Assembly: GCA_951799425.1 (NCBI GenBank)
Contig: OX637409.1
Coordinates: forward strand, 7,696,960-7,760,959
Origin: Ilex aquifolium
Taxonomy: Eukaryota; Streptophyta; Magnoliopsida; Aquifoliales; Aquifoliaceae
Direction: 5' to 3'
Length of the DNA: 64,000 bases
The first letter of the stretch is position 1. Every line of letters begins with the position of its first letter. Position numbers and translations under genes: made by a program. This document shows positions 11,003 to 41,987 of the stretch, in pieces. The notes under the pieces are model-generated. The model did not search any database. It was not told where the DNA came from and saw only the letters and a list, made by a program, of their open reading frames with translations.

Positions 11003-12922
11003 TGGCTTGATCCGAAATGTGTACACCCAAGTGCAGGCGGTCAAGCTATAGTAATAATCCGGTTTGAGTCCGGAGTCGAATCCTCAGGGAGCTCTTCTTG
11101 GTGTTTTGGGGTAAGCAGTGGTGCAGACCTATTGATTGTTACCCTTAAGATTTGAAGTTGTGAGGTGTGAGATTCTTTGGACAGAATATAAGATTCTTTC
11201 TAAGAGAATTTTCTAAACGAAATATGAAATAAGCTCTAATGTAAAAGAATCACTCTTTAGTTCAAGGATCTGGACATGTAATTAATTATCTGGTTTGTTA
11301 CACTTGTGCTTGATAACTCAATTAACCCCCGTGTCAACAACAGGTTAATCGAAAGATAAAGGTGGATTAAAAGAATTAAGAACATGATTATGATGTTTTT
11401 CTAGAAGTTTATAAGAATTGCCTGTGCCGAGACTTAACCCATCTACAAATAAGCAAGTGTTTCTACAAGACATCTAATCATGACATTAATGTTCCATTTC
11501 CATTCTTTAATTGAAGCACAATAATGGTGAAGATTGAAGGGTAGTCATGAAGATCTAGCCGGGGTACTTGCCTTGAACCGATGAGTCTTTCTATACAAGA
11601 GTTATCTATGTTATAAAAAGAACTCCTGGTTATACAAAGTACCTTAGCTTTGTTAGATGCAATCAATCATTCAATGAGCATGGGGAATATATAACATTAA
11701 GCATAATCTAAATTGCACAAATATAACATCCGGATAATTTATACATGCCCTTTTCCTCTTACTAAAAAGTGAATGAGAAACTACTCACTCTTCATGACTT
11801 TGGTAAAACTAGAAAAGTGAGTGATGCTCATTCTTCCAAGTAGATGGTTCACCAAACAAAGCACAATAAACTAGGAACCGATCTTCGACAAAGAATGAGT
11901 GAATCACGTTCCATCCTTCACGGCTTTGGCGAAGCTCTAGAAAAGTGGAAGAGTTTCACTCCTCTAAGGGAAGAAAAAAGCTCAAGCAATTGAAGTGAAT
12001 GATACATAAATTAAAAGTAGAAGAAAGATAGTCACTTTTGGAGGGTGATCCACAACCAAAGGTAAGCTATCTCCCTCTATGCATGGAAATGAAAGCATAA
12101 GCATAAGACTAATTTTATAACAAGCTAAGAGATGTTGGACTAAGCCAAACTAATCTCTAGAACAACTACTTCATACAAGGAAATGTAAGCTAATTCTACA
12201 ATATGAGTGGGAGTCTAAGCCTCCATCAACCTCTCTACTTGGTCTCTCTTAGTTCTCCAACAATGGGAGTATTTATAGGCAAGAGGAGGAGACAAGAAGG
12301 GGTGAAGGAATAGTGTATGCCGCCCAAGTCCAAGTGAAAATCCAACTACTCTGCAGCCAGTCTGTGGAGAACGTTTGAACGTGAGTTGGCGTTCGAACGT
12401 TGTCTCTGTTTTTGCTTTATGGGCGTTCGAAAGTTGTCTGCCGTTCGAACGTTTCTTCTGTCTTTGCATTATGGGCGTTCGAACGCCAGATGTGGTCTGA
12501 CCCTCTCACTCAAGTGGTCTATGGTCTTTTGTGAAGTTCATTTCCACACTCTATGCAGTAGTCTGGTCTTCAATCAACTCAAGTGGACATTCGAACGTGA
12601 GTTGGCGTTCGCACGTGGTACTCAAGTGCTTCAGAACCTCAGAGTCTTCTTTCTTGGCTGCAACACGCCTTCTCTCAGCAGTCAGATCTGCTTACAGTTC
12701 AAGTGGACGTTCGAACGTGAGTTGGCGTTCGAACGTTCTTGCAGTGCTCCAAGCTTCTCCAATTTTTGTTCCCTAATGTGCTGGTGTTATACTCAAGTGT
12801 CATACTTATTGTTCTTTGAGTCCTTGTTCACCTAAAGTCCTGAAATGATATCACATAAACTCCATCAAAGTATAATTAGTCTTAAAAAGACATAGTAAAA
12901 TGCTAATTTTAAGTACTAATCA
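11003..12922 (-). repeat. Athila F 3' LTR
   Basis: 1920 bp; on the minus strand it begins TGATTAGTACTTAAAATT and ends CGGATCAAGCCA. It matches 40052-41987 over its full length. A TATA box, CCTATAAATAC on the minus strand, lies at 12269-12279, with an array of CGTTCGAACG palindromes upstream of it at 12371-12740. Confidence 0.93.
12371..12740. promoter_or_regulatory. CGTTCGAACG palindrome array in Athila LTR
   Basis: At least five exact CGTTCGAACG decamers plus several one-base variants, often in pairs spaced by GTGAGTTGG. The array lies roughly 90-470 bases upstream of the LTR TATA box in the minus-strand sense. The same array is in the 5' LTR remnant (19373-19740) and in copy G (41458-41805). 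Confidence 0.8.
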
Positions 12923-12940
12923 CACCCCCAACCTAAATAT
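12923..12940 (-). other. Athila F polypurine tract region
   Basis: On the minus strand AGGTTGGGGGTG abuts the start of the 3' LTR, the expected position for plus-strand primer formation. Confidence 0.8.
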
Positions 12941-14772
12941 TACTAGTCTCTAGTAATACAATAATTGAAAATCTACTCCTAATGCCATTTTCGTAGGTCA
13001 TCCGGTTGCATTTAGGTTATACAACAAACCGTTGAACCCCTAGGTTTACCCTAGCGGACGAGTGTTGTCTCGTGAGGGTTTCCAGTGAAGCTACCCACAA
13101 ACTTCAGTCGAACCGATGTGTATGTGAGATTGCTAATTAAAGTAAATTAGCATCATGGTCGTTGGGACACTCATCCCTCAATTTTGACTTATATCCTGCA
13201 TGCTCCTCTTTCATTGGTATTTATGCTATGCAAAAATTAGCATCTGTTACATTGGTATTTGGAATTCCATGTGTAGTAGGAATGATCATTCTAGCAGCAA
13301 GAATTGTTATATAACAAACACTCCATTTTACCACCTTCCATGGATAGCTTCAATTTCACAAACCTCTCGTAGAATGCTCTCAGCAAAAGTTCGCTCCGAT
13401 TATAATGACTTGTCTCTCACGGGACATGTGATCAGAGGGTGGCTAGTCGAAAAATCACATGCACAATTAGGAAGGGAGTGAAGTTTAAGGAAGCAAACTA
13501 ATCATGTTTGGTATAATCTCATGAAAGAATATTGATGCAATTTAAAGAAATACTATTTATCATACCCCACTTTTGGTTGACGACACATGCATGCAATAGA
13601 CTTAAGATCATTTAGGGCTTTTCATAGGTTGTAATGTGGCCAGAGGTCAGTGGCTAACGAAATGACGTCAATAGTATTCAAAAGATATCATCTGTTTATG
13701 TAGTGTAGCACACCTCTTTCTACCTTTTCGGCATTTTGCCCAGAAATGATATTTCTTTCTTTCATTTTTCTCATTTTTTCACTTTCTTGGCAATTTCCTG
13801 CCTTTTTGCTTCTTTTCTGTTTCAATTGTTCCCATCGATTTTTCTTATCATTGAATAGTAGCCTTCATAGTTATTTCCCTTTTCCTTGCATTTCTGTATC
13901 ATCTAAGAGGGTGCAAGAAAATTAGATAGCAAAGATATGTCAAGTATATTCTCTTGTGGCTTGGTAATCATACGGGTTTATCGAAGAAGAGATCATACAT
14001 TGATGGCTCAAGCATGGCTAACTAGGGATATAATTTTGTAAAAGAAATGGCTAAGGCTCAAAATTAAATCCAAGATGGCCTAAGATCATTTCTCGAGCAT
14101 GTGCACATGTATGTGTCGTATGCGAAGGTTCCCTGTGGGATATGTCAATAGATCACTTTTAATTGCGTCAATCAAAGCAAGGTTAATGAGATTATTCAAA
14201 AATTGAGAGTGAAAGACCTTACTTGAGTAAACGTTAATTGTCTTTCAACAGTAAAGCAAGGCTCAAAACTTACCATGGTATTCCTTGTCATCTCCACTGG
14301 TTATGTCAGGTTTCTCGTGGAATGTTGGTTATATATCAGTTCCTTTTTCAAGCTTGGTCATCTTGTACCTTAGGATTATCAAATACCAATATACATTTGT
14401 CAATTTAAGCATAGAGAGAATACCAGTTTTCCAAGAAATGTGGTTTTAAATCTCGGTTGATAAGTTGAGGTGTCAAACCGATCATGTGCTTAGTCATTTT
14501 AACAAACATTCTTAGCATCCACATTCGTTCCATCATATATCAATATTAAGCTAAATCTACTTATGCATTTTAAAACAGATAAAAGTGATAAATTGAATCA
14601 TTCATTTCATAGAATATGATTTGTTCACACCAAAGATCAACGATCCAATTCATCCACAAAAGAAGTAATAAAACACAGAAAAACTTGTAACTCATAAAGG
14701 AAGGAACCATCATTCACAACAAACTAAAACACAAAACATGAAGAAACAAACACACAAAACCAAGAACAGAAA
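12941..14772 (-). other. Athila F long 3' untranslated region
   Basis: About 1.8 kb between the envelope-position ORF and the polypurine tract. No convincing ORF on either strand. The part from 13664 on is present in copy G (36329-37410), and the part before 13097 is present at 41988-42163, so this is a real part of the element. Confidence 0.75.
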
Positions 14773-15806
14773 TCAATCTCCTCCACCAAGTCCTCTAGGT
14801 CCACCTTGTCCACCCCTCAGAAGGCCAAGGATCTCCTCCTGCTGGTGCTGGGGGCCTGCCTCCTGTGGCTGCTCTCTCTCCTCCTCTACATCGAGCTCCT
14901 CTTGCACCTCGTCCACTCCATGGGTAGGGAGCATCTCCTGTCTGGCTGCTGGGCCACCACTATGACCTTGGCTCCTCCGGAAGGAAGCCTTGTTCAGTGG
15001 CCCCATTGGCTTTTGAATCTCCATTTCTGGCCTTACCCTAACCCCATGATCTTTGCATATTTCAGTCACTAGGGTGCCGAAGGGAAGTGAATTCCGCTTC
15101 ACGTCACACCCTTTCTTCATCTCTGTCAAAACTAGGGATGGGAGGTCGATGATTTGCCCTTTTTCAATTGCATACAATAGTCGGGCCATGTCGGGGAGGA
15201 TTTCATTTTTTTTCCTATTGGAGCAAAGTTGGCAACCGCAATCAAGTTCAACATCTTATATTTATCAGTCAACTCTCCTTGTTTAAAGAATTTCTTCCCA
15301 GTCCAAGAAAAATTAGGCACTCCCGTCTGCTCCTTCCCCACCACATTCATCGCCATATTCTTTCTCGGGGGGTAGGCGGGACTTGGTACCTAAGGCACCT
15401 CTTGCCTTATCCCCCAAATGTAATCTTCATCCACATTTATGTGGATGCCCCTCACATAGCTTTTCAACTCCCCATTGACGATCTCGGCGTTGGAGTAAAA
15501 CTCCCGCACCAAGTCTACTACGACCTCTCCGCCGTTTTGCAAATACAAGACCCAACCCCTCCTCTCCATCTCTGTCATTATACCCAACTCAATAAAATCA
15601 GTCAAAACTACATCCCTCTCACAAACCACAACATATTTTTGGTAGAAATTATCGTACCTGTCAACTTTTAGAGCCGTAGGAAATCTAGTCTTGTCGTATC
15701 TCAGCGTAAGGGGAGGCCTCCCTTCTCTTAATTCAACCACTTCCTCAACGAAATTGGGCTCTTGGGTTGGTGGAATGCGTCTGGCAGGTAGCTTGACCCT
15801 TGGCAT
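14773..15806 (-). pseudogene. Athila F envelope-position ORF, broken
   Basis: Starts at ATG 15806 (MPRVKLPARRIPP) and would encode about 340 residues. A TAG near 15390 and a frameshift near 15190-15210 break it. The core VVDLVREFYSNAEI followed by SYVRGIHINVDE resembles the 'putative plant transposon protein' family (Pfam Transposase_32, as I recall it), common in plant Gypsy elements. The C-terminal part is acidic, with Glu/Gln runs that may form a coiled coil. It lies between integrase and the 3' LTR, where some Athila elements carry an env-like gene; no clear signal peptide or membrane span is visible, so an envelope role is not shown. A better preserved copy is at 37411-38508. Confidence 0.8.
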
Positions 15807-16020
15807 GGTGTTTTTCGGTTTTGAGTTTGTGAGGGTGTTGAAAGTTTTGATTTCTTGGTGAAAATGGAAGTTTTTGATGTGGGAATGGTCGTGGGAGGGT
15901 TGATTTTAGGTAGAAATGGGGAATGAGGGGTGCTTAGTGGTCTGGGTAGTGAAAAGACAGTCTAGGGTTTGGAGGTTTTTGAAGGGTTTTGGGGGTTTTG
16001 AAATGGGGAAGACGATCCAG

Positions 16021-16330
16021 ATATTTATAGTCTGAGAAGTGACGTTCGAACGTTACTGACGTTCGAACGTGTGTAGAAGGATTTTTAAAAGACCGTTCGA
16101 ACGTGGCCTGCTCCCAGTACTTTTGAGTTCTGTCAGAGACCAAAGTACTGCAAGGTCTTCTCGTTCGAACGTTCTATTGGCGTTCGAACATTAACTCTCG
16201 TTCGAACGTTCTACTGGCGTTCGAACGAGCTGAGCTCCTAGTACTTTTAAGTTTCATCAGGAGCTTCATCAGAGGTTGAGTACTATAAGCAGCTGACGTT
16301 CGAACGTCACTTGGCGTTCGAACGTTGAAT
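16021..16330 (-). promoter_or_regulatory. Candidate internal promoter upstream of the Athila extra ORF
   Basis: On the minus strand, eight exact CGTTCGAACG palindromes (16330 down to 16043) end about 10 bases before a TATA box, ACTATAAATAT (16021-16031). The ORF start at 15806 is about 215 bases downstream. CCCAGTACTTTT-type motifs alternate with the palindromes. The same layout is present in copy G. That it drives transcription is inference. Confidence 0.6.
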
Positions 16331-16586
16331 CAAAAATCAAAAATTTCTGCACTACACTATACTATATCCGAGAGGGCTAAACACACAATTTAAAATAAAA
16401 AACCTATGGCGTCTCAGGATAAGTCCCTACCCACGCTTTAGGTTGGTATTCTGGGACATTCCTTACTCGGCCTATATTTTCATTTCCGTCAAAAGAGTTT
16501 GTACAAGAAGATTTTTACACTTTTTACAAAAATTCGGACCTTTGGCTTTCATCCCAACAAAAGTACAATTTCCTACAGAAAATACT

Positions 16587-16997
16587 CTAATCAGAGTCTC
16601 CCTCCGTGTCTGTGTAGTTTGGACAACTAGTGACTCTCCCAATTTTCTCTCTCACAAACCGGTTAAGCAAAGTACCGGAATAGCATGGCGTATCAGGGTA
16701 ATCCTTACTCAACCCATTCACTATCCAGTCTAATCGATCGAGTGCGCGACTGAAAATTGGTTCAGAACACTGGTTATATCTTTTCTCGTGAAAGACTCTA
16801 CCACATTATTTACAGGCACCCAACCTTTTGGCACGACGGCGTTTGACAAAGGTGTTTCTGCCACAGAGGAGTTTCACTTGTTTCTCTTGGATTTCGGTCT
16901 TCCTTACCAGTCTTGCTTTTCTCATAATCACAGTATGCACATCAGATGGAAAAGTGCGTAGAACTCCTAGACTAAACCAAAAAAGTTTAACATCCAT
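16587..16997 (-). pseudogene. Small basic Cys-containing ORF of Athila, copy F, broken
   Basis: From ATG 16997 (MDVKLFWFSLGV) to the stop at 16587, about 136 residues, with one TAA near 16812 inside the CK-CGR motif. Visible features are a basic run (KRRRAKRLGACK) followed by a Cys/His cluster (CGRVFHEKRYNQC) and a conserved acidic C-terminus (TDTEGDSD). Copy G keeps this uninterrupted. I do not recognise the family; a zinc-binding nucleic-acid-associated role is inference only. Confidence 0.6.
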
Positions 16998-17314
16998 GTT
17001 TTCTAAACTTTAAGACTCACTATCTGGTTCTTTAACGTCTACCAGTCACAAAGACGATTGAAGCTGACTCACAGACATAATCATCAATTTATACAAGGCA
17101 AGGTACATAATATGATCAGAACAACAACAAAAACAACAAAAATTTTAAAAATTTACGGGCACATGGTGGCAAATATGAACTGTAGTTCTCACCCCCAACC
17201 TAAACAGAATATTATCCCCAATGTTTCAAATTTACTAGTTCACGGATCTTGGAGATGAGGTTGAATGGTAGAGATCTGTTCATCTGCCGAAACCTACAAA
17301 TAAAAATGCACAAA

Positions 17315-17461
17315 TTACTCATCTTTGCCCAGATCTGGGTTTCGGGTAGGATGAAAATCCTTGTGTGTGAGTGCGAATAAAAGAAGAACACCCGTAAGCA
17401 CATATAAAATTAAAATGCAAAACATGAAGTAAAAGATTGTGTTTGTAGAATGTGTGGTCAT
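17315..17461 (-). CDS. Small transmembrane ORF of Athila F
   Basis: A 48-residue ORF starting MTTHSTNTIF with a clear hydrophobic span (FYFMFCILILYVLTGVLLLF), probably one membrane helix, followed by a charged tail ending LGKDE. A TATA-like TTTATAAGG (minus strand, about 17566-17576) lies roughly 100 bases upstream, followed by a C/T-rich leader. A longer in-frame start at 17641 is also open. Most of this stretch is deleted in copy G, so it cannot be checked there. Could be spurious. Confidence 0.35.
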   Translation of the reverse strand: MTTHSTNTIFYFMFCILILYVLTGVLLLFALTHKDFHPTRNPDLGKDE

Positions 17462-17567
17462 GGGTTGTTTATCAGATAACAGAGAAAACGAAGAAGAAGA
17501 AGAAGAAAAAGAAGGGATGGGGGGCCAACGGCAGTAGCTGGAAAAAAGGGGAAAAAGAGTGGGAGCC

Positions 17568-18362
17568 TTATAAAGGCGCCCCAGTGGGTCGGGTTGGGTT
17601 AGATTTTTTCTGACCCGATCCACTTGAGTGTTGGCAAACACGAATCTCGGAGGAGTATTCTAGTTCCATTAAAAGAATTGTTTCCACATTTTTAACAAAA
17701 TCCTCCAAAAATGGTTTCAACCGCTGACCATTAACAGTAAAGACATTACCGTTTGACGGATTTTCCACTTCAACTGCTTCATTTCCAAACACCTTTTTGA
17801 CAATGTAAGGCCCAGTCCATCTTGACTTCAACTTACCAGGAAAGAGGCGGAGCCTTGAATTAAATAACAGGACTTTTTGAGAAAACTCAAAAGATTTCCA
17901 CACAATGTTTTTGTCATGAAAAATTTTCATCCTGGTTTTAGCAATCATAGCATTCTCATATGCTTCATTTTTTAATTCCTCCAATTCATTTATCTGAAGT
18001 TTTCTTGCTAGTCCAGCCTTGTCCAGGTTAAAATTCATTGCTTTAATAGCCCAGTATGCCCTATGTTCCAATTCCACATGTAGGTGACACGGCTTTTCAT
18101 AGACTAATCGATAAGAAGACATGCCCAAAATTGTTTTAAAAGTAGTGCGGTATGCCCAGAGTGTATCAGTTAGTCTTAACGACCAATCTTTGCGGTCTGA
18201 ATTCACCATTTTTTCTAAAATTAATTTGATCTCCCGATTAGCTAGTTCAGCTTGTCCACTGGTCTGTGGGTGATAAGGGGTTGCAATTTTGTGAAAGATC
18301 AAGTATTTTTTCATCAAATTCCAAAAGGGACGATTGCAAAAATGAGCACCCCCATCACTTAT
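17568..18362 (-). pseudogene. Athila F integrase, C-terminal part
   Basis: The preserved frame starts at the second catalytic aspartate ([14 protein letters not shown] near 18355) and continues through [18 protein letters not shown] with the catalytic glutamate, then [26 protein letters not shown] in pieces typical of Athila integrases, and [17 protein letters not shown] in the C-terminal domain. The reading frame stays open to a stop at 17568. The first part of the domain and all upstream pol are deleted, so it is not functional. Confidence 0.9.
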
Positions 18363-18366
18363 GATT

Positions 18367-19923
18367 GATTAAGAGAATTAAGAATATGATTCCGATGTCT
18401 TTCTAGAAGTTTACAAGAATTGTCTGTGCCGAGACTTAACCCGTCTATAAACAAGCAAGTGTTTCTACAAGACATCCAATCATGACATTAATGTTCTATT
18501 TCCATTCTTTAATTGAAGCACAATAATGGTGAAGATTGAAGGGTAGTCATGAAGATCTAGCTGGGGTACTTGCCTTGAAACGATGAGTCTTTCTATACAA
18601 GAGTTATCTATGTTATAGAAAGAACTCCTGGTTATACAAAGTCCTTAGCTTTGTTAGATGCAATCAATCATTCAATAAGCATGGGGAATATATAACATTA
18701 AGCATAATCGAAATTGCACAAATATAACATCCGGATAATTTATACATGCCATTCTCCTCTTACTAAAAAGTGAATGAGAAACTACTCACTCTTCATGGCT
18801 TTGGTAAAATTAGAAAAGTGAGTGATGCTCATTCCTCCAAGTAGAGGGTTCACCAAACAAAGCACAATAAACAAGGAGCCAATCTTCGACAAAGAATGAG
18901 TGAATCACGTTCCACCCTTCACGGCTTTGGCGAAGCTCTAGAAAAGTGGAAGAGTTTCACTCCTCTAAGGGAAGAAAGAAGCTCAAGCAATGGAAGTGAA
19001 TGATACACAAATTAAAAGTAGAAGAAAGATAGTCACTTTTAGAGGGTGATCCACAACCAAAGGTAAGCTATCTCCCTCTATGCATGGAAATGAAAACATA
19101 AGCATAAGACTAATTTTATAACAAGCTAAGAGATGTTGGACTAAGCCAAACTAATCTCTAGAACAACTACTTCATACAAGGAAATGTAAGCTAATTCTAC
19201 AATATGAATGGGAGTTTAAGCCTCCATCAACCTCTCTACTTGGTCTCTCTTAGTTCTCCAACAATGGGAGTATTTATAGGTAAGAGGAAGAGACAAGAAG
19301 GGGTGAAGGAATAGTGTATGCTGCCCAAGTCCAAGTGAAAAATCAACTACTCTGCAGCCAGTCTATCGAGAACGTTCGAACGTGAGTTGGCGTTCGAACG
19401 TTGTCTCTGTTTTTATTTTATGGGCATTCGAACGTTGTCTGCCATTCGAACGTTTCTTCTGTCTTTGCATTATGGGCGTTCGAACGCCAGATGTGGTCTG
19501 ACCCTCTCACTCAAGTGGTATGTGGTCTTCTGTGAAGTTCATTTCCACACTCTATGCAGTAATCTGGTCTTTAATCAACTCAAGTGGACGTTCGAATGTG
19601 AGTTGGCGTTCGAACGTGGTACTCAAGTGCTTTAGAACCTCAGAGTCTTCTTTCTTGGCTGCAACACGCCTTCTCTCAGCAGTCAGGTCTACTCACAGTT
19701 CAAGTGGACGTTCGAACGTGAGTTGACGTTCGAACGTTCTTGCAGTGCTCTAAGCTTCTCCAATTTTTGTTCCCTAATGTGCTGGTGTTATACTCAAGTG
19801 TCATACTTATTGTTCTTTGAGTCCTTGTTCACCTAAAGTCTTGAAATGACATCACTTAAACTCCATCAAAGTATAATTAGTCTTAAAAAGGCATAGTAAA
19901 ATGCTAATTTTAAGTACTAATCA
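18367..19923 (-). repeat. Athila F 5' LTR, truncated
   Basis: 1557 bp matching about 11365-12922 of the other LTR with few differences. It keeps the palindrome array (19373-19740) and TATA box (about 19268-19278) but lacks roughly 360 bases at the U5 end and the primer-binding site, through the same deletion that removed gag-pol. Confidence 0.9.
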
Positions 19924-19928
19924 GGTGG

Positions 19929-20390
19929 CAATGACCGTGGTGGCAGTGGTGGTGGTGGTGGCGACGATGACATCGGTGGCGGCGGCAGTGAGGGCGACGG
20001 TGGTGACGATGGCGGCGACGATGGTGGTGGTGGCGGCGGCAGCGACAGACAGCGGCAATGGCAATGGTGGTGGTGGTGGCGACGACGGTGGCGGCGGTGG
20101 TGGTGGCGGTGATGGCGATGGTGGTGGTGACGACGGCGGTGGTGGCGGTGGTGGTGGTGGCGATGATGATGGCGGTGGTGGTGGTGGCGACGACGGGAGT
20201 GGTGGTGGTGGCGGTGGCGACGGTGGTGGTGGTGGTGGTGGCGGTGGTGACAACAGCGACGGGGGTGGTGGTGGCGGCAGTGACGGCGGTGGTGGCGGCA
20301 GTGGTGGCGGTGTTGGCAGTGTTGGCGGTGGTGAAGGTGGCGGTGGCGGTGGCGGTGGCGGTGGTAGAGGTAGTGGTGGGGCGGTTTCAA
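19929..20390 (-). repeat. GGT/GGC/GAC triplet-rich stretch of the Helitron
   Basis: About 460 bases of GGTGGTGGC-like triplets, reading as Gly/Asp-rich in one frame and Pro-, His- or Val-rich in others. Copies at 52265-52500 and 52880-53010 in the other Helitrons have the same kind of tract, so it is a simple-repeat component of the family, not a protein gene. Confidence 0.85.
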
Positions 20391-20627
20391 ACACTATTTT
20401 TTTTTTAAAGTACTTATAAGAAATAATTTTTAGAAGTACTTTTAAAAAGTCACTCCAAACACACACCCTTAGGGGCCTATTTTTCCTATTAAATTTAGGG
20501 TGTTAATATCAGCCGTTAGATTAACTTTAAAGTAAAATTTAAAGCGATATGAACCGCGAAAAATAAAAGTCATTTTGTTTATTTTTTGAAATTTGAATTG
20601 TAAGCTACTTTATTATATATATATAGA

Positions 20628-21318
20628 AGAAGAAGAAGAAATAAAAGGAGGGAGGCGATGTTCGAACGCTAAAACAATGCTTCGAACGTGCTTTACTCCC
20701 AGTACTTTTTCAGAATCTCAGTTTCTGACAGAAATTGAGATACTGGGACTTCGGTTCATTCGAACGCAACCCACGTTCGAATGTGACTTACTCCCAGTAC
20801 TTTGGCAGAAATCTCATAATTGAGATACTGAGAGTTGAGTACGTTCGAACGTGGAAATCTCGTTCAAACGTGACAGATATTATGTTTGAAATTAGTCTCT
20901 AACGGCTATATTATTGCAGCCCTTTCAAGGGGTGTCTTCTGCCATGGATTTGAAGGGTTACACTCCGTCATTAAGAGATGTATAGAACACTATAAATAGA
21001 GTTCAAGTGCAAGAACAAAGTATCAACAATTTAATCCTTCTTCTTTTTCTTGATTCAAAGCTTCTATATTTTCTTATTTTCTATTCGGGTTGAGTTTTGA
21101 TTCCAAGATTACTAAGGAGTGTAGTATTTGATAATCTTAAAGTTAGGCATTGTATCATGGGGGTACAATTTCTAAGAGTCCATCTGCATTATAAGTGGGG
21201 AAATTACTATCTTGAAGATAGCGAGTGTCGTGCCTTGTCTAGCGATCTATCTTCTTCGATTTTTAATTCATTGCTTTTCTACTACTTGAAATTATTTACC
21301 ACACTGTATTCTACAACA
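20628..21318 (+). repeat. Copia C 5' LTR, second part
   Basis: Matches 26226-26927. Contains the palindrome-type motifs (20657-20875), CTATAAATAGA (20990-21000) as likely TATA box, and ends TTCTACAACA. Confidence 0.92.
20655..20880. promoter_or_regulatory. TTCGAACG and CCCAGTACTTT module in the Copia C LTR
   Basis: Pairs of TTCGAACG-type motifs alternate with two CTCCCAGTACTTT motifs, each followed by a GAGATACTG repeat. This is the same vocabulary as the Athila region 16040-16330. It ends about 110 bases before the LTR TATA box. The matching 3' LTR segment is 26268-26480. Confidence 0.75.
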
Positions 21319-21343
21319 ATTTCGAGATAGTTATCTTTCTACA

Positions 21344-25818: not shown

Positions 25819-26927
25819 TGTTCTATATATAGGTAATATATATATATATATATATAGTTATTTACTAATAGTGATATATTGATTAGTAAAACATCATTTG
25901 CATGAATTGACATAAACATTGAATACATGTATATATAAGAGTATATATATAGTATACATAAAATACAATAGTACTTTCTAAATTGAGATTGGTGGGAAAG
26001 TAAAATTTTTCACTTCCCTCCAAAACATTTGGAGTATATGAGTTGGAGGGCAAAGACATGAATCCCACATTGGTTCTTGGAGGTTCTTCATGGATTCATC
26101 TTCATCTATAAATAGAGGAAGAACTTCATTCTCCACTCAAGGTCTCAAGGAATCCTCTTAAAGAGGAGACTTACATAATGAGAATTTCAAGTTATAATTT
26201 TGTATATATATATATATATATATATAGAAGAAGAAGAAGAAGAAGAAATAATAAAAGGAGGGAGGCGACGTTCGAACGCTAAAACAATGCTTTGAACGTG
26301 CTTTGCTCCCAGTACTTTTTCAGAATCTCAGTTTCTGACATAAATTGAGATACTGGGACTTCGGTTCGTTCGAACGCAACCCACGTTTGAACGTGATTTG
26401 CTCCCAGTACTTTGGCAGAAATCTCAGAATTGAGATACTGAGAGTTGAGTATGTTCGAACGTGGAAATCTCGTTCAAATGTGACAAGTATTCTATTTGAA
26501 TTAGTCTCTAACGGCTATATTATTGCAGCTCTTTCAAGGGGTGTCTTCTGCCATGGATTTGAAGGGATACACTCCTTCATTAGGAGATGCATAAAATATT
26601 ATAAATAGGGTTCAAGTGCAAGAACAAAATATCAACAATTTAATCCTTCTACTTTTTTTTTTGTAATAAAAGCTTCTATATTTTCTTATTTTCTATTCGG
26701 GTTGAGTTTTGATTCCAAGATTACTAAGGAGTGCAGTCTTTGATAATCTTAAAGTTAGGCATTATATCTTGGGGGTAGAATTTTCAAGAGTCCATTTGCA
26801 TTATAAGTGGGGAAATTACTATCTCGAAGATAGCGATTGCTGCGCCGTGCCTAGCGATCTATCTTTTTCGGTTATTCATTGCTTTTCTACTACTTGAAAT
26901 TGGTTTACCACACTGTAGTCTACAACA
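25819..26927 (+). repeat. Copia C 3' LTR, intact
   Basis: 1109 bp from TGTTCTATATATAGG to GTCTACAACA. It supplies the uninterrupted version against which the Helitron insertion in the 5' LTR is recognised: a TA run directly followed by GAAGAAG at about 26205-26240. Confidence 0.93.
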
Positions 26928-26932
26928 ATGTT

Positions 26933-28018: not shown

Positions 28019-28032
28019 AGTCAAGTAGGAGA

Positions 28033-33110: not shown

Positions 33111-33558
33111 ATGGGCAGTTCTATGTAAGGCTGGTCATGGGGATTAAGCCCGACTAACAAATTTAGTAAATGGGTGACATTATTTGACCCATGGCTAACT
33201 CTTGGACTGGACTGAGTCCTTGGTCCATTTTTTACTCGAGGTGTCTCTGGCCCAGGTCACTCTTTATCAGTGTCTTTGTTTGGGTACCTACACTGTGCAC
33301 AACCCAGATCATCTCTGTTTCGAAACTTCAATCTGTCAATTTTGATTAATATCAATTACAACGTCAAATCTGATAATATTTTTTGCAAATTGATGATTAG
33401 GAAGTTATATAAGTATGGATATTCTGTGTTCAATTCTCATTGGTAACTCATAGATTTAATCGATCTACGTGTTTAGCGGATAAGTGTATATTTTGGCAAT
33501 TTATTCTGTAAAAATGATTTAACGTTGCAGAGATTCATCATGAATTCATAAATATGGG

Positions 33559-34110
33559 GGGCTATCCCACATCGGATAGCCTTTGGGTGTGTGTGTGAAT
33601 TATAAGGACCTATGACACTTCTGCTTTTAAGTAGAAGTGTTGTAGTGTTCTCTGGTAAAAAAAAAAAAATTTGTCGGTAGGCGTGCGTTCCAGGGTGGGT
33701 CCCATGTGGGCTCAGCTACATTCCTCTGAGGCCCGACTAAGATCGGGGAGGCCTTTGGGCCTAGGTGGTGATGGGCTGGGGCTATCTCACGTCGAATAGC
33801 CTTTGGGTGTGTGTGTGAGTTATAAGGACCTATAACACTTCTGCTTTTAAGTAGAAGTGTTGTAGTGTTCTCTGGTAAAAAAAAAAAAATTTGCCGGTAG
33901 GCGTGCGTTCCAGGGTGGGTCCCATGTGGGCTCAGCTACATTCCTCTGAGGCCCGACTAAGATCAGGGAGGCCTTTGGGCCTAGGTGGTGATGGGCTGGG
34001 GCTATCTCACGTCGAATAGCCTTTGGGTGTGTGTGTGTGAGTTATAAGGACCTATGACACTTCTGCTTTTAAGTAAAAGTGTTGTAGTGTTCTCTGGTCA
34101 AAAAAAGAAA
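33559..34110 (+). mobile_element. Trimeric SINE-like repeat, 220-bp period, with 16-bp TSD
   Basis: Two and a half copies (starts near 33561, 33781, 34001) of a 220-bp unit, flanked by a perfect duplication AATTCATAAATATGGG (33543-33558 and 34111-34126). Each copy of the first part ends TCTCTGGT plus an A-run, including at the right end, so target-primed retroposition of a multimer is likely. The first unit has ATCCCACATCG (33564-33574), an exact match to the plant snRNA upstream element RTCCCACATCG, with TATAAGG about 26 bases downstream. Confidence 0.75.
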
Positions 34111-34269
34111 AATTCATAAATATGGGAAGAATAAATAAAACAAAGTGATTTTCTATATAATGTCTCCATCAATTCATGACAGAAAGCTTATGAGCAGGAA
34201 ATGAAGATTGGATATCCCATTGGCCAAATGTTTGATCAAAATCTTAAGGTATCAATCTAGAGTCTATGC

Positions 34270-34445: not shown

Positions 34446-34861
34446 ACTTACCCAAAAAATAATTCTTAACTTCAATGAGAGAGAATTGGAAAAGTTGAGT
34501 TAGAAGAAGAGATAATAATCGATGGAGAGAGAAAAAGAATGGATGGAAAGTTATGTCGGACACAGATAGTGAAAGGTGGAGAAATTAAGTGAGATAAAAA
34601 GTTGTCACGGGTACGGAATTGATTTGATTGAATTACATTTGTTTAATTAAAAAAATTAAAATTCTATTAAATATAAAATATAAGGAAGGAAAGTTTCTCG
34701 AATCACTCCCATCCAATTATTTTGATCTGTTCAAGATTCTTTGAGCTTCATTGTAATCTCTCTACTTAAGTTAATGACTATCATCTACCAGTCTTTGAAC
34801 TGCCCAAGAATCCCTGGTATTTGAATAATATATATAATCACCCTCGTTCTCATTTTGTCGA
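34446..34861. other. Intergenic, nothing recognised
   Basis: AT-rich, no ORF, RNA gene or clear repeat seen. Confidence 0.4.
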
Positions 34862-34869
34862 ATCACCAA

Positions 34870-35660
34870 TAGGGGTGACTCAACCACGTTTGGGGCCTAA
34901 AGCGGCCAATGAGATTTTTTTATTTTCTTAATAATAATTTATAAAATCTATTATTTATATTTTTTGATGAGATTCGAAATTGTTAATTAATTTTTTATTC
35001 GAATTTTTTTAATTTATTTTTTTGATTAATAATATGACTTTTGATCATAAATATGTATAGGAATAAAATTAATTTCTTCATTGATATTTTAATGTTCTTT
35101 TTATTTTTTTTATATGTTCTTTATCGAAATTGTGGTATTAAATGATTGACTTTATTATAAATAAATTCATTGTTATCTTTCTTTTGGAATAATTTACTAT
35201 CTTTGAATTTTATTTATTTATCTATGCAACTTTCACCTAAATTTTTGTTATATTTTATTTATTACGAATAAGAACTTTATCAAAACATTTTTTTAATAAG
35301 AACAAATGGTTTAATTGGTGTTTTGCATTCAAATAAGAAAAAAAAAATTTAAGAAAAATAGAGAATGTGTTTGGTTTAATTTTTTTTTGGAGAAAGAGAT
35401 GGATTTTGTCAGTACTTTTTTTTGTTAATCTTTTTTTTATCCTTTAATAAATGTGATTGTGTGCCGTGGTCTGGACTTTTGAGCCCAAATTTTTCATTTT
35501 TTTGTTGGTTTACTCTTTCAAAAATTATTTTGTTAGGCTATATTGTAGTAAATTTTATTTTTTAACTTATATTACATTATTGATCTTTAAATTTGAGGTC
35601 TTTTTTTATATGTGGGGCCTAAAGTCCACACTTTTGTTTTTACACTATAGGCCGGCCCTG
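34870..35660. mobile_element. hAT-like insertion, non-autonomous
   Basis: 791 bp between ATCACCAA (34862-34869) and CTCACCAA (35661-35668), an 8-bp duplication with one mismatch. Ends are TAGGGGTGACTC and, on the complement, CAGGGCCGGCC. GGGGCCTAAAG occurs near both ends in the same direction. The body is T-rich without a transposase. Confidence 0.65.
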
Positions 35661-35668
35661 CTCACCAA

Positions 35669-35929
35669 ATATTCCTTAGCCAAAAGGTCGAACATACCAA
35701 CAAACAAAGACAAAAGGAGAATTCTTAGCAATAGTTTAGTGATTAAGTTTATTCTCTAGTAAACAAGAGGTCTTAAGTTTGATACTTTCTATATCCCTAG
35801 GGTCTTTCTATGGTACTGAAATAGGTTTTTCGGCTAGTCGTTAATCACTTCACAGTGTGGATACCAGTTACTTGGTGAAGTAGAAATCAAAAGATGGAGT
35901 TGGGTTTGAGTATAGAATCATATAACCTC
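35669..35929. other. Intergenic, possible SINE-like segment
   Basis: TTTAGTGATTAAGTTTATTC followed by GGTCTTAAGTTTGATACTTT (about 35734-35792) has a loose box A/box B look but no clear TSD or tail. Left unclassified. Confidence 0.3.
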
Positions 35930-35934
35930 ATACA

Positions 35935-36328
35935 AAAAATGTGGTAAACTCATCCTCAAAAATTGCAACCTTTCTCAAACTCAAAAATTGTAATCCCACT
36001 CCAAAATGTCATAACCCAATTTAGAAAAGTTATAATTTCACCTCCATAAGGTTATAACTCAATTCACAAAAGTTGTAATTTCACCACCAAAAGGTTGTAA
36101 TCCAATCCAAAAAGCTTATAATGGATTGTAACCTCACCTAAAAACGTGTTAACCGTACCAAAAAAGTAATAACTCTACCACCCAAAATGTTGGAACCTAA
36201 TCCCCAAAAGATTGTAAGTCAAGCCAGACCCAAAAGTTAGAACCCTACCCCAAAAATTGAAACTCAATCTAGAAAAGTTGGAATTCCACCCCTAAAAGTT
36301 AGAACCCCAGCCCAAAAGTTGGAACCCC
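35935..36328 (+). repeat. Degenerate AAAAGTTGTAACCC-type tandem array, left part
   Basis: About 20 imperfect units of 18-21 bp of the form AAAAGTTGTAACCCCACCC, drifting from GTTATAAC variants on the left to GTTGGAACCCC on the right. It breaks off at 36328 where Athila G starts and resumes at 42163. Confidence 0.82.
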
Positions 36329-37410
36329 GACGTCAGGGATTTTCAAAAGCTATCTTTTGTTTACGTATTGTAGCACACATTTTTCTAACTTCTTGATATT
36401 TTGCCGAGAGATGACATTTCTTTCTTTCATTTTTCTCATTTTTCACTTTCTTGGCAAGTTCTTGCCTTTTTGCTTCTGTTTTGTTTCAATTGTTCCAATC
36501 AACTCTTCTTGGATGATAATCTCGAATGCTCCTTTTCCTTTTCCTTTTTCTGTATCATCTTACAAAGAGGATGTAAGAAAATTAGATAGCCAAGGTATGT
36601 CAAGTATGCTTTCCTGTGGATTGGTAATCATATAGGTTTATCAAAGAAAAATTCATACATTGATGGCTCAAACATGGCTAACGAGGGATAAATTTTGTCA
36701 AAGAAAGGTCTAAGGCTCAATATTATATCAAAGATGGCCTAAGATCATTTCTCAAGCATGTGCACATGTATGTGTCGTATACGATGGTTCCTTGTGGGAT
36801 ATGTCAATAGATCACTTTTAAGTGCGTCAATCAAAGCAAGGTTAATGAGATCATTCAAAAATTGAGAGTGAAAAAAATTTACTTGAGTAAACATTGATTG
36901 TCTCTCGAAAGCATTGTTAGGTTCGAAACTCACCCTGGTGTTCTTTGTTATCTCCACTGTGTATGTCGGGTTTTCCAGGGGGTATTGGTTATATACCAAT
37001 TCCATTTTCGAGTCAGATCCTCCTGTACCTTTAAAATAACAAATATCGATGTACATATGACAATTTAAGTATAGAGAGAATACCAATTTTTTCAAGAAAT
37101 GTGATTTTAAGTCTCGGTTGATAAATGGAGGTGTCAAACCGATCATGTGCATATTTACTCTAGCAAGCATTCTTAACATCCACATTTGTTCCATCACCTT
37201 TTAATTTTTATGCTAAATCTTCAAATGCATTAAAACAAATAAAAGTGATAAATGAAACCATTCATTTCAAAATATCATCTTTTAATATCAACGGTTCGAT
37301 TCATTCACAATCACACAAAAACTTACAACTATCAAAGAAGAAATTCATAAAAAGAAGCACTTTAAACAAACATAAAAAAATACAAGAACAAGAACAGAAA
37401 TCCCTCTCTC
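36329..37410 (-). other. Athila G 3' UTR part
   Basis: Matches 13664-14772 of element F. No ORF of note. Confidence 0.8.
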
Positions 37411-38508
37411 TCACTCTCCTCCTTGTGCATCATCTCCTCCATGTCCACCCCTCAGATACCTAAGGATCTCATCCTGCTTAGCTTCAATGCTAAGCATGAC
37501 GTCCAATAAGGAGCGTCGGGTGCTGGTGCTGGTGCTAGGTCCTGCCTCCGGCGGTTGATCTCTTTCTCTCTCCATCTCTTTCTCCATCTCATCAAGCTCC
37601 TCTTGTACCTCATCCACTCCGTGGGCCGGGGGCTCTTCTTGCCTTGCCGCTGGGCCGTCACTATGACTTTGGCTTCTCCGGAAGGAAACCTTGTTCAGTG
37701 GCTCCATTGGCTTTTGGATTTCCATCTCGGGCTTCACCCTTACCCCATGTTCCGTGCACATTTCAGTCACCAAAGTAGCAAAAGGGAGTGCACTCCTCTT
37801 TACATCACACCCCTTCTTCATTTCATTCAGGATGAGAGAGGGGAGGTCGATGCTATGTCCTTTTCCAATGGCATACAAAAGTCGGGCCATGTCGGGTAAA
37901 ATCTCATTCTTTCTTCCTACGGGAGCGAAGTTGGACACCGCAATCAAATTCATCATTTTATATTTGTCGGTGAGCTCCCCTTGCCTCAAAAATCTCCTCC
38001 CTGCCCATGAAAAGTCAGCTACCCCCGTCAATTCCTTTCCCACCACATTCATTGCTATGTCCTTCTTTGGGGGGTAGGTAGGGTTTTGCATTCGAGGTAT
38101 TTCCTCTCTTATTTCAACGATGTATGCTTCATCCACGTCAATGTGGGTACCCCTAACATATGTCCGGATTGCGCCGTTGATGATCTCAGCGTTGGAGTAA
38201 AACTCACGCACCAAGTCAACAACGGCGTCTCCACCATTCCTCAAGTACCAGACCCACTCCCTCCTCTACATTTCTTGCCTTATTCCAATCTTAGCAAAGT
38301 CATCAATTACAACATCTCTCTCACAAACAATTGCATGCTTATGGTAAAAATTTTCATACCTTTCAGCCTTTAAGGCATTGGGAAACCTGGTCCTATCATA
38401 TCTCTTTGTCCTTTGCCTTCCTTCCCTTTCTTCTATCACCTCTTCTACAATGTTTGGATCTTGGTTCACTGGTGGAGCACGCCTGGCAGGGAGTTTCATC
38501 CTTGGCAT
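37411..38508 (-). pseudogene. Athila G envelope-position ORF, one nonsense codon
   Basis: From ATG 38508 (MPRMKLPARRAPP) to 37411, about 365 codons, open except for one TAG near 38266, where copy F has a Glu codon (TEMERRGW). Contains VVDLVREFYSNAEI and TYVRGTHIDVDE as in copy F, then RLLYAIGKGHSIDLPSLILN and an acidic, Glu/Arg-rich tail ending GDDAQGGE. That two decayed copies keep the same 340-365-residue frame supports a real gene of this family. Function unknown; the resemblance to the Transposase_32-type family is from memory. Confidence 0.82.
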
Positions 38509-38723
38509 GGCGTTCGAACGTGGGTTTTGGTTTGAGAGGGTGCTGAAAAGTGCTGGAAACTTAGGGTTCTTGGTCTGGGATTGATGATTTTGATGTGGAG
38601 AGGAGTTAGGGAGGGTCGAATTTGGGTATTCTTGGGGAATGAGGGCGAGTTGAGGTCTGTGGAGTGAAAATGAGTTCTAGGGTTTTGAAAAATTTGGGGA
38701 TTTTGGCTGAAAATGACGAACCA

Positions 38724-39035
38724 GGATTTTATAGCCTGAGTTGTAACGTTCGAACGTTGGTGACGTTCGAACGTGGGTAGAAGGATTTAAACAGACCGTT
38801 CGAACGTGGTATGGCGTTCGAACGTGGTGAGCTCTCAGTACTTTTGTGTTCTGTCAGAAGCCAAAGTACTGTAAGTTCTCTTCGTTTGAACGTTCTATTG
38901 GCGTTCGAACGTTAATCTCGTTCGAACGGTCTATTGGCGTTCGAACGGACTGAGCTCCCAGTACTTTTAAGTTCCAGCAGAAGCTTCATCAGAGGCTGAG
39001 TACTGTAAGCAGCCAACGTTAGAACGTTACCTGGC
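38724..39035 (-). promoter_or_regulatory. Candidate internal promoter of Athila G
   Basis: GGCTATAAAATCC on the minus strand (38724-38736) lies about 10 bases downstream of a run of about seven CGTTCGAACG palindromes (38747-38945), with CCAGTACTTTT motifs between them. The ORF start is at 38508. The palindrome count and order parallel copy F although the sequences have diverged. Confidence 0.6.
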
Positions 39036-39314
39036 GTTCGAACATTGAACCAAAAATTAAAGTTTTTCTCCACTACACTATATACAATCAAAGAAGGCAA
39101 AACACACAAATTTAATTCAAAAAAAACTAAGGCGTCTCAGGATGAACCCCTACCCACGCTTCAGGTTGGTATTTTGGGGCATTCCTTACTCGGCCCATAT
39201 TTTCATTTTAATCAAAAGAATTTATACAAAAAGATTTTTACACTTTTTACAACAAATTCGAACCTTTGGCTTTCACTCCCCCAACAAAAGTACATATTTC
39301 CTACCGAAAATTAT

Positions 39315-39659
39315 TTAATCCGAGTCTCCCTCTGTGTCTGTGTAGAATGGACAACCAGTAACTCTCCCAACTTCCTCTCTCACAAATCGGTTAAGCACAG
39401 TACCGGAATAGCATGGCGTATCAGGGTAATCCTTACTCAGCCCATTTACTATCCAGTCTAATCGATCAAGTGCACGACCGGAAATTGGTTCAGAACACTG
39501 GTTGTACCTTTTTTCGTGAAAGAATCTGCCACACTGTTTACAGGCACCAAGCCTTTTGGCCCGACGGCGTTTAGCAAAGCTGCTTCTGCCACAGAGGGGT
39601 TTCGCTTGTTTTTCTTTGATTTCAGCCTTCCTTACTAATCTTGTTTTTCTCATGATCAT
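39315..39659 (-). CDS. Small basic Cys-containing ORF of Athila G, uninterrupted
   Basis: 114 codons from ATG 39659 (MIMRKTRLVRKAEI); the same frame is open up to about 39738, covering the extra N-terminal part seen in copy F, which there starts with ATG. Contains the basic run KRRRAKRLGACKQCGRFF, a CxxC followed by HEKRYNQC, a middle segment LDRLDWIVNGLSKDYPDTP and the acidic end YTDTEGDSD. Copy F differs mostly at the nucleotide level. It lies between integrase and the promoter-like array. Not recognised; zinc binding is inferred from the Cys/His spacing. Confidence 0.6.
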   Translation of the reverse strand: MIMRKTRLVRKAEIKEKQAKPLCGRSSFAKRRRAKRLGACKQCGRFFHEKRYNQCSEPISGRALDRLDWIVNGLSKDYPDTPCYSGTVLNRFVREEVGRVTGCPFYTDTEGDSD

Positions 39660-40028
39660 AGTATGTACATCAGATGAAAAAGTACGTAGAACTCCCAGGC
39701 TAAACCAAAAAAGATTTACATCAATGATTGCTAAATTTTAAGACTCACTATCTGGTTCTTTAACGTCTGTCAGTCACAAAGACGATTGAAGCTGATTCAT
39801 AAGCATAATCATCAATTTATACAATCAATGTTCAAACATGATCAACAACGACAATAAAAAATTTAAAAAATTTACGAAAATATGAGAAAAAAATGAACTG
39901 ATGAACTGATCATACCCCCCAACCTAAACTGAACATTGTCCCCAATGTTTCGAATTTACCGGTTCATGAAATGTGGAGACGAGGTTGAATGGTCGAGATC
40001 TGTTCACCGCTGAGACCTTTTAAAGGTT

Positions 40029-40045
40029 CCCCGGCAACGGCGCCA
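40029..40045 (-). other. Athila primer-binding site
   Basis: TGGCGCCGTTGCCGGGG on the minus strand, 6 bases from the LTR end. This is the tRNA-Asp-type site typical of Athila/Tat Gypsy elements. Confidence 0.9.
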
Positions 40046-40051
40046 AAAACT

Positions 40052-41987
40052 TGATGCTTGATCCGAAATGTGTACACCCAAGTGCAGGCGGTCAAGCTGT
40101 AGTAATAATCCGGTTTGAGTCCGGAGTCGAATCCACAGGGAACTTTTGTTGATATTTCTGAGGTGAGCAGTGGTAGAGACCGACTGATTGTAACCTTTGA
40201 GATTTGCTGTGAGATATGAGTTTTCCTGGACAGAATATAAGATTCTTTCCAAGAGGATTTTCTTAACAAAATAGGTGCTAAATAAAAAAAGTCACTCTTT
40301 AGTGTAAGGATCTGGACATGTAGTTAGTTATCCGGTTTGTCATAATTGTGCTTGATAACTCAATTAACTCCCGTGTCAACAGCAAGTTAATCGGAAGATA
40401 AAGATGGATTGTGAGAATTAAGACCATGATTTCGATGTCTTTCTAGAAGTTTACAAGAATTGCCTGTACCGAAACTTAACCCGTCTACAAACAAGCAAGT
40501 GTTTCTACAAGACATCCAATCATGATATTAATATTCCATTTTTTAAATGAAGTGCAATAAGGGGGAAGATTGAATGGTAGTCATGAGGATCTAGCCGGGG
40601 TACTTGCCTTGAACTGATGAGTCTTTCTATGCAAGAGTCATCCGTGTCATAGAAAGAGCCCACAATTATACAAAGTACCTTAGCTTTGCTAGATGCAATC
40701 AATCATCCAATAACAAGAAGAAATAAACGTTAAGCATAAAAACATTGCACAAATATGATTCCCGGATAACTTATACATGCCCTTCTCCTCTTGCTAAAGA
40801 GTGAATGAGAAACTACTCACTCTTCATGGCTTGGGTAAAGCTAGAAAAGTGAGTGATGCTCATCCCTCCAAGTAGAGAACTTATAAGATAAATTAACAAC
40901 AAATGCGTAGCCAATCTTTAACAAAGAATGGGTGAATCACGTTCCACCCTTCACGACTTTGGTAAAGCTCTAGAAAAGTGGAAGAGTTTCACTCTTCTAA
41001 GAAAGAAAGAATGGCAAGCAATGGAAGTGAAATGTATGAACAATAAAAGTAAAAGAAAGCTAGTCACATTTGGAGGGTGGCTTCCTCAACCAAGAATTGG
41101 AGGGTTGCTTCCTCAACCAAAAGGTGAGTTATCTCTCTTCTATGCATGAAAAATGAAAGCATAAACATAAGCATAAGCATAAACTACTGTTATAACAAGC
41201 AAGAGATGTTGGAATAAAGCCAAACTAATCTCTAAAATAAAGACTTCATACAAGGAAAATGAGCTAAATCTACAATGAGAGTGAGAGTCTAAGCCTCCAT
41301 CAACTTTCCTACTTCCTACTTGGCTCCCATAACTCTCCAACAAGGGGAGTATTTATAGGCAAGAGGAGGAGACAAGGGGGGGGGGGGGTGAAGGAATAGT
41401 GTTTGCCGCCCAAGTCCAAGTGAACAGTCAACAACTCTGCTTCCAGTCTTTGGATAATGTTCGAACGTGAGTTGGCGTTCGAACGTTCTTTCTGTTTTTG
41501 CACTACGGGCGTTCGAACGTTCTTTCTGTTTTTGCACTAAGGGTGTTCGAACGCCAGATTTGCTCTGACCCTTTCACTCAAGTGGTCTGTTGGTCTTCTG
41601 TGAAATTCAGTTCCAACTCTTTGCAGTAGTCTGGTCTTCCATCAACTCAAGTGCACGTTCGAACGTGAGTTGGCGTTCGAACGTGACACTCAAGTGCTTC
41701 AGAGCTCCAGTCTTCTTTCCTAACTGCAACACGCCTTCTCTTTAGCAGTTGAGTCTGCTACAGTGTAAGGTGGACGTTCGAACGTGAGTTGGCGTTCGAA
41801 CGTTCTGGCTGTGCTCCAAGCTTCTCCAATTTTGGGCTCTAATGTGCTGGTGCTGCATCCAAGTGTGGTACTTGTTGTTCTTGGGTCCTTGTTCAGTTTA
41901 GGGCCTGAAATGACATCACTTAAACTCCATTAAAGTACAATTAGTCTTAAAATGTCATAATAATATGTCAATTTTAAGTACTAATCA
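40052..41987 (-). repeat. Athila G LTR
   Basis: 1936 bp, homologous to 11003-12922. TATA box CCTATAAATAC (minus strand) near 41348-41358, palindrome array at 41458-41805, and a poly(G) run near 41377-41390 absent from copy F. Confidence 0.92.

Follow-up and report, generated by a model that had tools for sequence, protein, structure and literature searches.

In a 64-kb stretch of the Ilex aquifolium genome (G000:C19:7696960-7760959, referred to here as the window; the genome comprises 800 Mb in 103 contigs), long terminal repeat (LTR) retrotransposons of different superfamilies carry dense arrays of a palindromic decamer, CGTTCGAACG (abbreviated P), and of an AGTACT-centred 13-mer, CTCCCAGTACTTT, set at fixed distances from each other. 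The carriers within the window are two Athila elements, F and G, and one Copia element, C; a further, chromovirus-like family, D, was found elsewhere in the genome. Judging from the form and position of the sites, we consider it fairly probable that the array of decamers and 13-mers is a promoter or enhancer module recognized by a predicted dimeric host factor, and that Athila and D share it by exchange or common origin.

The window contains 36 exact copies of P where dinucleotide shuffles of the window lead one to expect 0.01, and six copies of the motif CCCAGTACTTT where 0.03 are expected, so that the roughly three dozen decamers reported as far above chance in a preliminary description of this DNA were recovered. 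With up to two mismatches allowed, 57 decamers were found, every one within the Athila F or G or Copia C stretches and none in the remaining 43,287 window bases, in line with the confinement to these elements claimed earlier. By family, 33 of the 36 exact copies belong to Athila and three to the Copia LTRs. Genome-wide there are 7,903 matches to P-N8-P (two decamers 8 bp apart) and 1,239 exact matches (598 + 641) to P-N7-13-mer, with reversed controls of zero in both cases. The position-ordered P-N8-P matches start at C1:9,296,304, with none in the first 9.29 Mb of contig C1, where single decamers were left uncounted; this suggests that decamer pairs are uncommon in that arm. In the part of the non-transposon DNA that was covered, namely 43 kb of the window and, for P-N8-P, the beginning of C1, the motif is thus not as common as in the elements. 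P-N7..9-P was also absent from the viral contig set searched.

The sites of the Athila internal clusters and of the Copia LTRs combine into a unit that is near-palindromic over ~80 bp. A listing of sites and gaps gives its layout as P, 7 bp, 13-mer, inner stretch (the letters between the CTCCCAGTACTTT and AAAGTACTGGGAG arms), reverse-complement 13-mer, 7 bp, P. The alternation of decamers with CCCAGTACTTT noted in the preliminary description is present in these clusters and absent from the three Athila LTR clusters, which hold decamers without a good 13-mer. Clusters, units and associated features lie at the following window positions:

11005..12922, minus strand: Athila F 3' LTR (11365-12922 pairs with 18367-19923 at 95.8%)
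12270..12277, minus strand: TATA box of the Athila F 3' LTR, 95 bp past the last decamer
12372..12735, minus strand: decamer cluster in U3 (the unique 3' region) of the Athila F 3' LTR, 9 sites with at most one mismatch, 5 exact; a good 13-mer is absent
14773-15255 and 15390-15905, minus strand: two Athila F open reading frame (ORF) pieces downstream of the internal cluster, PF20167 (Transposase_32) matches below cutoff
16022..16029, minus strand: TATA box of the Athila F internal cluster, 14 bp past the cluster
16043..16324, minus strand: Athila F internal module, decamers plus units 16094-16171 (inner 18) and 16218-16306 (inner 29)
18367..19923, minus strand: Athila F 5' LTR without its 3' part
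19373..19736, minus strand: decamer cluster in U3 of the Athila F 5' LTR, 9 sites, 6 exact; TATA at 19278 (minus strand), 95 bp on
20614..21320, plus strand: Copia C 5' LTR, limits as in the BLAST alignment
20659..20870, plus strand: Copia C 5' LTR module, units 20679-20766 (inner 28) and 20774-20851 (inner 18)
20991..20998, plus strand: TATA box of the Copia C 5' LTR, 121 bp past the last decamer
26269..26480, plus strand: Copia C 3' LTR module, units 26289-26376 (inner 28) and 26384-26461 (inner 18)
26600..26607, plus strand: TATA box of the Copia C 3' LTR, 120 bp past the last decamer
37411..38265, minus strand: Athila G ORF of 284 amino acids downstream of the internal cluster, PF20167 (Transposase_32) E 1.4e-23, above cutoff
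38726..38733, minus strand: TATA box of the Athila G internal cluster, 14 bp past the cluster
38747..39044, minus strand: Athila G internal module, units 38815-38892 (inner 18) and 38938-39026 (inner 29) plus decamers
40028..40045, minus strand: primer-binding site (PBS) TGGCGCCGTTGCCGGGGA of Athila G, exact, marking the LTR 3' end of G
41476..41802, minus strand: decamer cluster in U3 of the Athila G LTR, 7 sites, 6 exact; TATA at 41357 (minus strand), 119 bp on

The spacing of the unit is rigid outside the 13-mers and takes two values between them. Automated scanning of the window and of loci L003-L014 (L-numbers denote fetched loci, mostly from C1) yielded 20 units; for 13-mers with at most two mismatches and decamers with at most one, gaps of 0-24 bp took the value 7 in 22 cases and 24, which is the next decamer, in three, with no other value and no decamer on the inner side of the 13-mers. 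When gaps of 5-9 bp were tried in all loci fetched other than L001 and L002, 109 sites had a gap of 7 and a single site a gap of 6, with no instance of 5, 8 or 9; this count is biased by choice because 37 of the loci (30 behind the P-N7-13-mer survey and seven further ones) were selected by a gap-7 site and some overlap. Twenty Copia loci were picked by LTR similarity alone, without use of the motif, and in these together with the two window copies the upstream gap is 7 bp in 19 of 22 second units.

Inner lengths were compared in 90 distinct units from three families, with the count restricted to units whose two 13-mers each have a decamer 7 bp further out. They measure 17-19 bp in 47 units, 28-31 bp in 42 and 11 bp in one; none falls between 20 and 27 bp. 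Both classes occur in each family (short/long 13/7 in D, 15/14 in Copia, and 19/21 in Athila, which also has the 11-bp unit). Of 22 Copia copies, 16 have a short second unit (seen directly in 13 and deduced from total spacing in three), five have one that is 10 bp longer (L053, L056, L062, L063, L064), and in L065 it is broken. When the 90 units were placed on a midpoint-rooted tree, each family grouped apart from the other two; within Athila and D, long units branch from among the short ones, and many nodes are weak. Since the classes differ by approximately one helical turn, the simplest reading is that the two halves of the unit would have to face the same side of the helix.

Relationship of the Athila, D and Copia modules

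Ten C1 stretches around P-N8-P were read, and in four of them (L009-L012) the cluster lies in sequence unlike F, G and C. One complete element of this family, D, has LTRs at L010:2299-4389 and L015:4467-6644 (90.5% alike), a target-site duplication CAGGG and a PBS TGGTATCAGAGC, and its domains follow the gypsy order: RVP_2, RVT_1, RNase H, Integrase_H2C2 (integrase zinc-binding) and SH3_Tf2-1. Two further copies are solo LTRs with their own target-site duplications. Because SH3_Tf2-1 is present and no chromodomain was matched in the D ORFs scanned, the family is labeled chromovirus-like only. The D unit is located in U3, 53-54 bp upstream of a CTATAAATA box in the five clusters inspected. The 30 P-N7-13-mer loci divide into 21 in the Athila internal module (four pairs overlapping) and nine in a D LTR, and seven more sites with unfamiliar spacers all proved to be D.

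The Athila internal module aligns with the D LTR at E 7e-22 (L044) and, over 157 bp at 79%, at E 2.8e-23 (L068). With decamers and 13-mers left out, the spacers are 64-77% identical in 11 of 12 Athila-D pairs and 50% identical in the other; seven pairs beat all 300 shuffles, and in the remaining five 2, 3, 4, 13 and 22 of 300 shuffles scored at or above the observed value. The module is thereby shown to be homologous in two Gypsy lineages, over ~150 bp of the Athila internal module and the D U3 with spacers included, and its exchange or common origin is well supported.

Copia shares less. None of its spacer pairs came out ahead of shuffles, the best being 19/300 with D and 33/300 with Athila. 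Among 45 cross-family pairs of inner cores, six gave 0/2000 shuffles (values uncorrected for multiple tests). Three of the six involve Copia and run in sense orientation, pairing C5_long with A_F_short, with A_G_short and, at 13 identical bases, with D_L12. The remaining 17 of the 20 Copia inner pairs stood at 110/2000 or worse, and the other eight Copia-Athila pairs at 169/2000 or worse. Decamer-masked local alignment of Copia and Athila clusters mostly returned the 13-mer, and when whole units were aligned with the motifs kept in register, the signals were weak and ambiguous as to orientation (4/1000 as the lowest Copia-Athila value). A cross-superfamily stretch of the QuinCent type (discussed below) was sought, and the inner core aligned partly in 3/20 Copia pairs, but the spacers did not. 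Beyond decamers, the features that align between Copia and Athila are the 13-mers, again 7 bp away, and a portion of the inner core. The earlier proposal that the module had moved between superfamilies is partly supported: movement between lineages is backed by the Athila-D pair, whereas for Copia and Athila the alignment is limited to these shared features and does not take in the spacers.

These results leave room for the view that each superfamily assembled the same sites alone, with one abundant host factor rewarding them, so that Copia owes nothing to Athila or D. We regard this as possible, if somewhat short of probable. The lack of alignment between Copia spacers and those of Athila or D fits such convergence, motif and spacing alone account for most of the Copia similarity, and the decamer-only Athila U3 arrays indicate that decamers can build up without the 13-mer. 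However, the identical two-site unit recurs with 7 bp on both sides and with the same two inner classes, part of the inner core is common in sense orientation (in the three of 20 pairs above, the other 17 offering no such signal), and the aligned spacers of Athila and D would be left unexplained. Transfer of the module into Copia, for example by template switching, is plausible. It could have been an old event after which everything except the bound bases was lost, or the elements may have converged on a single factor; selection by the same factor is needed for Copia either way.

Proposed promoter role and its alternatives

All seven clusters in the window are followed by a TATAAATA- or TATAAAA-type box on the sense strand, as had been claimed before, once the strand is minded (minus for Athila, plus for Copia). 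The distance from the last decamer to the box is 14 bp in the two Athila internal clusters, 95, 95 and 119 bp in the three Athila LTRs, and 121 and 120 bp in the two Copia LTRs. In plant retroelements, the position of the PF20167 ORF is the place of the env-like gene, and the natural reading of a TATA box plus module ahead of this ORF in Athila is a putative internal promoter. The transcription-factor-binding module suggested in the preliminary description is strongly indicated by the palindromic sites, their rigid spacing and their place ahead of TATA; we infer binding itself, activation and a host origin of the factor.

In the mechanism we propose, a dimeric DNA-binding protein, or two partners, would occupy CGTTCGAACG and the AGTACT-centred 13-mers as a rigid, near-symmetric array, and the bound array would activate the downstream TATA promoter. 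For Copia C and family D, this would place the LTR promoter under the control of the module. Athila would use a decamer-only version in the LTR U3 and the full version internally, where it probably provides the env-position (Transposase_32) ORF with a second promoter. Exchange or shared origin accounts for the module being common to Athila and D, and Copia C would have received it longer ago or arrived at the same site grammar by convergence.

Conservation of the sites is consistent with this proposal. Over the initial 800 bp of 10 Athila LTRs, similarity is 91.6% in motif columns vs 84.6% elsewhere, and within families decamers are 0.94-0.96 alike vs 0.43-0.71 for the 7-bp spacers (Athila, D), both contrasts being biased upward because matches to the motifs were what defined these columns and units. 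Several further observations weigh against the proposal. Copia decamers (0.78, 0.88) show hardly any excess over their spacers (0.73, 0.76), the Copia spacers do not outscore shuffles, the second 13-mer arm of the window Copia is poor (4 mismatches), and two Copia loci (L051 and L056) have an upstream gap of 6 bp and a third (L054) has lost the decamer. The spacing of the first unit of L060, which lies outside the 90, implies a 5-bp gain contrary to the length rule. CpG retention within motifs (224/258 cells) is no higher than in two outside pairs (17/20), and related copies are not independent of each other. In addition, 16 of the 19 single-mismatch decamers in the window are CpG transitions, the mark expected of methylated copies decaying, which indicates that the present copies were probably methylated and silent.

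The same CpG pattern bears on an anti-silencing role, in which an element-encoded factor, for example from the Athila env-position ORF, would bind its own arrays as in VANC systems and keep them open, with other families parasitizing it. We consider this unlikely. Of the 29 CpG column pairs in the aligned 800 bp of Athila U3, 27 fall within motifs, the array is found in the LTR and directly ahead of the ORF, and VANC6 motifs also occur in the unrelated AT9TSD1 (PMC5735166). Yet decayed sites carry CpG transitions, and the G ORF, with PF20167 as its sole Pfam match and nothing in NCBIfam, has no recognized DNA-binding domain; a structure model of the 284-residue protein was unusable (mean predicted local distance difference test, pLDDT, of 38.9).

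The near-palindromic character of the units over ~80 bp could also point to a structural or integration role, with the palindromes acting as hairpins, as a nucleosome-positioning sequence or as recombination hot spots. A precedent is QuinCent, a 162-bp stretch with cryptic inverted repeats in a Gypsy LTR for which nucleosome positioning is proposed (PMC11302176). An arrangement of many short sites, separated by letters that are less conserved, fits protein binding better than a single long hairpin, however, and a location upstream of TATA boxes is not predicted by such a role, which we judge highly unlikely. Even less credence can be given to the array being a functionless multicopy relic, spread along with its elements: the copies are old and decaying (the Copia LTR pair is 90.6% identical) and the conservation contrasts are biased as described, but three families with different proteins share the same geometry, and inner lengths avoid 20-27 bp.

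Beyond the promoter module itself, a wider and rather doubtful extension would be that at least three retrotransposon lineages depend on one trans-acting activation or anti-silencing system, in which Copia acquired or imitated a rigid, helically phased array that Athila or D had invented or carried, unrelated elements are co-activated, and Athila reuses the array as an internal promoter for the env-position gene. The arrays suggest common control, in which a single system could activate mobile elements of unrelated kinds. If true, the module would provide a direct handle on the co-activation of unrelated retrotransposons and on the factor behind it, and would bear on the expression of env-position genes in plant retroelements; the two inner length classes amount to a precise prediction on helical phasing.

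Structure of the carrier elements and neighboring features

Matches to PF20167 place Athila F and G on the minus strand. Because the PBS TGGCGCCGTTGCCGGGGA, presumably Athila-typical and of tRNA-Asp type, is exact at 40028-40045, the stretch 40046-41987 is the Athila G LTR and, by homology, 11005-12922 that of F; 11005-11364 represents the 3' part of the F 3' LTR, by homology to G and the position of the PBS in G. The PBS occurs with at most four mismatches in eight fetched Athila loci and is not present at F. A Pfam scan of nine minus-strand ORFs of F and G returned no gag or pol domain and no PF03078 (ATHILA). The F 5' LTR is cut short around 18340-18400, and G runs from the PBS straight into the internal region common with F. 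Given the missing domains and this junction, both copies look internally deleted and have presumably lost gag and most of pol; the absent Athila proteins speak against completeness, not against lineage. The F ORF at 17568-18368 resembles an IS481 transposase model only weakly, scoring far under the cutoff. One decamer of G, at 38511, is outside any cluster and downstream of the internal TATA box. The G internal ORF at 39315-39737 (minus strand) matches Viral_NABP (PF05515, E 1.8e-8) and Carla_C4, which is unexpected for a retrotransposon.

Copia C, on the plus strand, has PF14223, PF22936, PF00665 and PF07727 in order (gag, Pol_BBD, rve and RVT_2; rve slightly below cutoff), that is, the Ty1/copia arrangement with gag and integrase before RVT_2. 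In a search for relatives of its LTR, 40 of 175 candidates were scored and all 40, two being the window's own, gave long matches, 27 of which start within the first six query bases; on this evidence the module is part of the Copia C family.

Near family D, an ORF at L015:2218-2766 (minus strand) matches Peptidase_A3 (Cauliflower mosaic virus peptidase, E 1.3e-21) and is probably a fragment of endogenous pararetrovirus type, and an open frame of 949 amino acids close to a solo D LTR (L009:7145-9991, minus strand) contains Copia gag, integrase and part of RVT_2. Elsewhere in the window, inverted repeats partly rich in GGT/ACC at 20121-20625 and 52032-52525 are 81% alike over ~500 bp and 31 kb apart. 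A 36-bp tandem array at 7727-8230 has ~14 copies with a small inverted repeat in each, and a 220-bp tandem repeat at 33558-34114 has 2.5 copies with 96% matches. The ORF at 31363-31821 matches Ribosomal_L17 (E 1.2e-38), the sole host-gene-like ORF among the window ORFs in the Pfam scan.

Comparison with known systems

Two general elements were considered and rejected on their letters. The heat-shock element (nGAAnnTTCn/nTTCnnGAAn) is not matched, as TTC and GAA abut in the decamer and GAAnnTTC arises only where TTC follows; the RNA polymerase III B box (GWTCRANNC) needs a final C, and GTTCGAACG ends in G on both strands. The core TTCGAA does fit TTYGAA, which we take to be the consensus of the cell-cycle genes homology region (CHR) and a target of LIN54/TCX CXC proteins. 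A literature check did not confirm this link, which serves as a lead only, and the flanking CG...CG and the 13-mer are unexplained by CHR. The full-text literature contained no paper on the module for CGTTCGAACG (among the matches listed) or for TTCGAACG together with retrotransposon, as judged from titles and abstract openings, with subscription journals mostly outside its coverage. Likewise, neither the matches listed nor the three systems compared below showed two sites locked at one distance, a pair of length classes or a spread over three families.

The repeated motif (RM) boxes of Sireviruses are palindromic, CpG-rich and multicopy, and lie in the LTR shortly upstream of TATA (PMC2829016). 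The LTR clusters described here share that placement. Their core is TTCGAA with a 13-mer at a fixed distance, not the CGG-CCG core of RM boxes, and their carriers are Athila, a chromovirus-like element and Copia, whereas RM carriers are Copia Sireviruses (PMC2829016). Sireviruses also have extra RM clusters 5' of the envelope gene, where an internal promoter has been proposed and none conclusively identified (PMC2829016); the internal clusters of Athila F and G precede PF20167 ORFs, which are candidate envelope genes by position.

QuinCent is an inverted-repeat LTR motif common to RLG_Quinta (Gypsy) and RLC_Gisela (Copia), for which acquisition of the one from the other has been proposed (PMC11302176). 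Our module resembles it as an inverted-repeat LTR motif in both superfamilies. QuinCent is one homologous stretch of 162 bp linked to nucleosome positioning (PMC11302176), in contrast to an array of short sites at fixed spacing that occurs in three families and probably also serves as an internal promoter.

VANC arrays consist of a dense short motif in the non-coding parts of VANDAL transposons, and one VANC motif is found in the unrelated AT9TSD1 (PMC5735166). Density, location in non-coding parts of mobile elements and occurrence across unrelated elements are likewise features of the module described here. In VANC-type anti-silencing, a protein encoded by the element itself binds the motif and brings about loss of CG methylation. 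The binding protein of the VANDAL targets is known (PMC5735166), whereas the sites of Athila, D and Copia C are palindromic and spaced at fixed distances, and their binder is only predicted.

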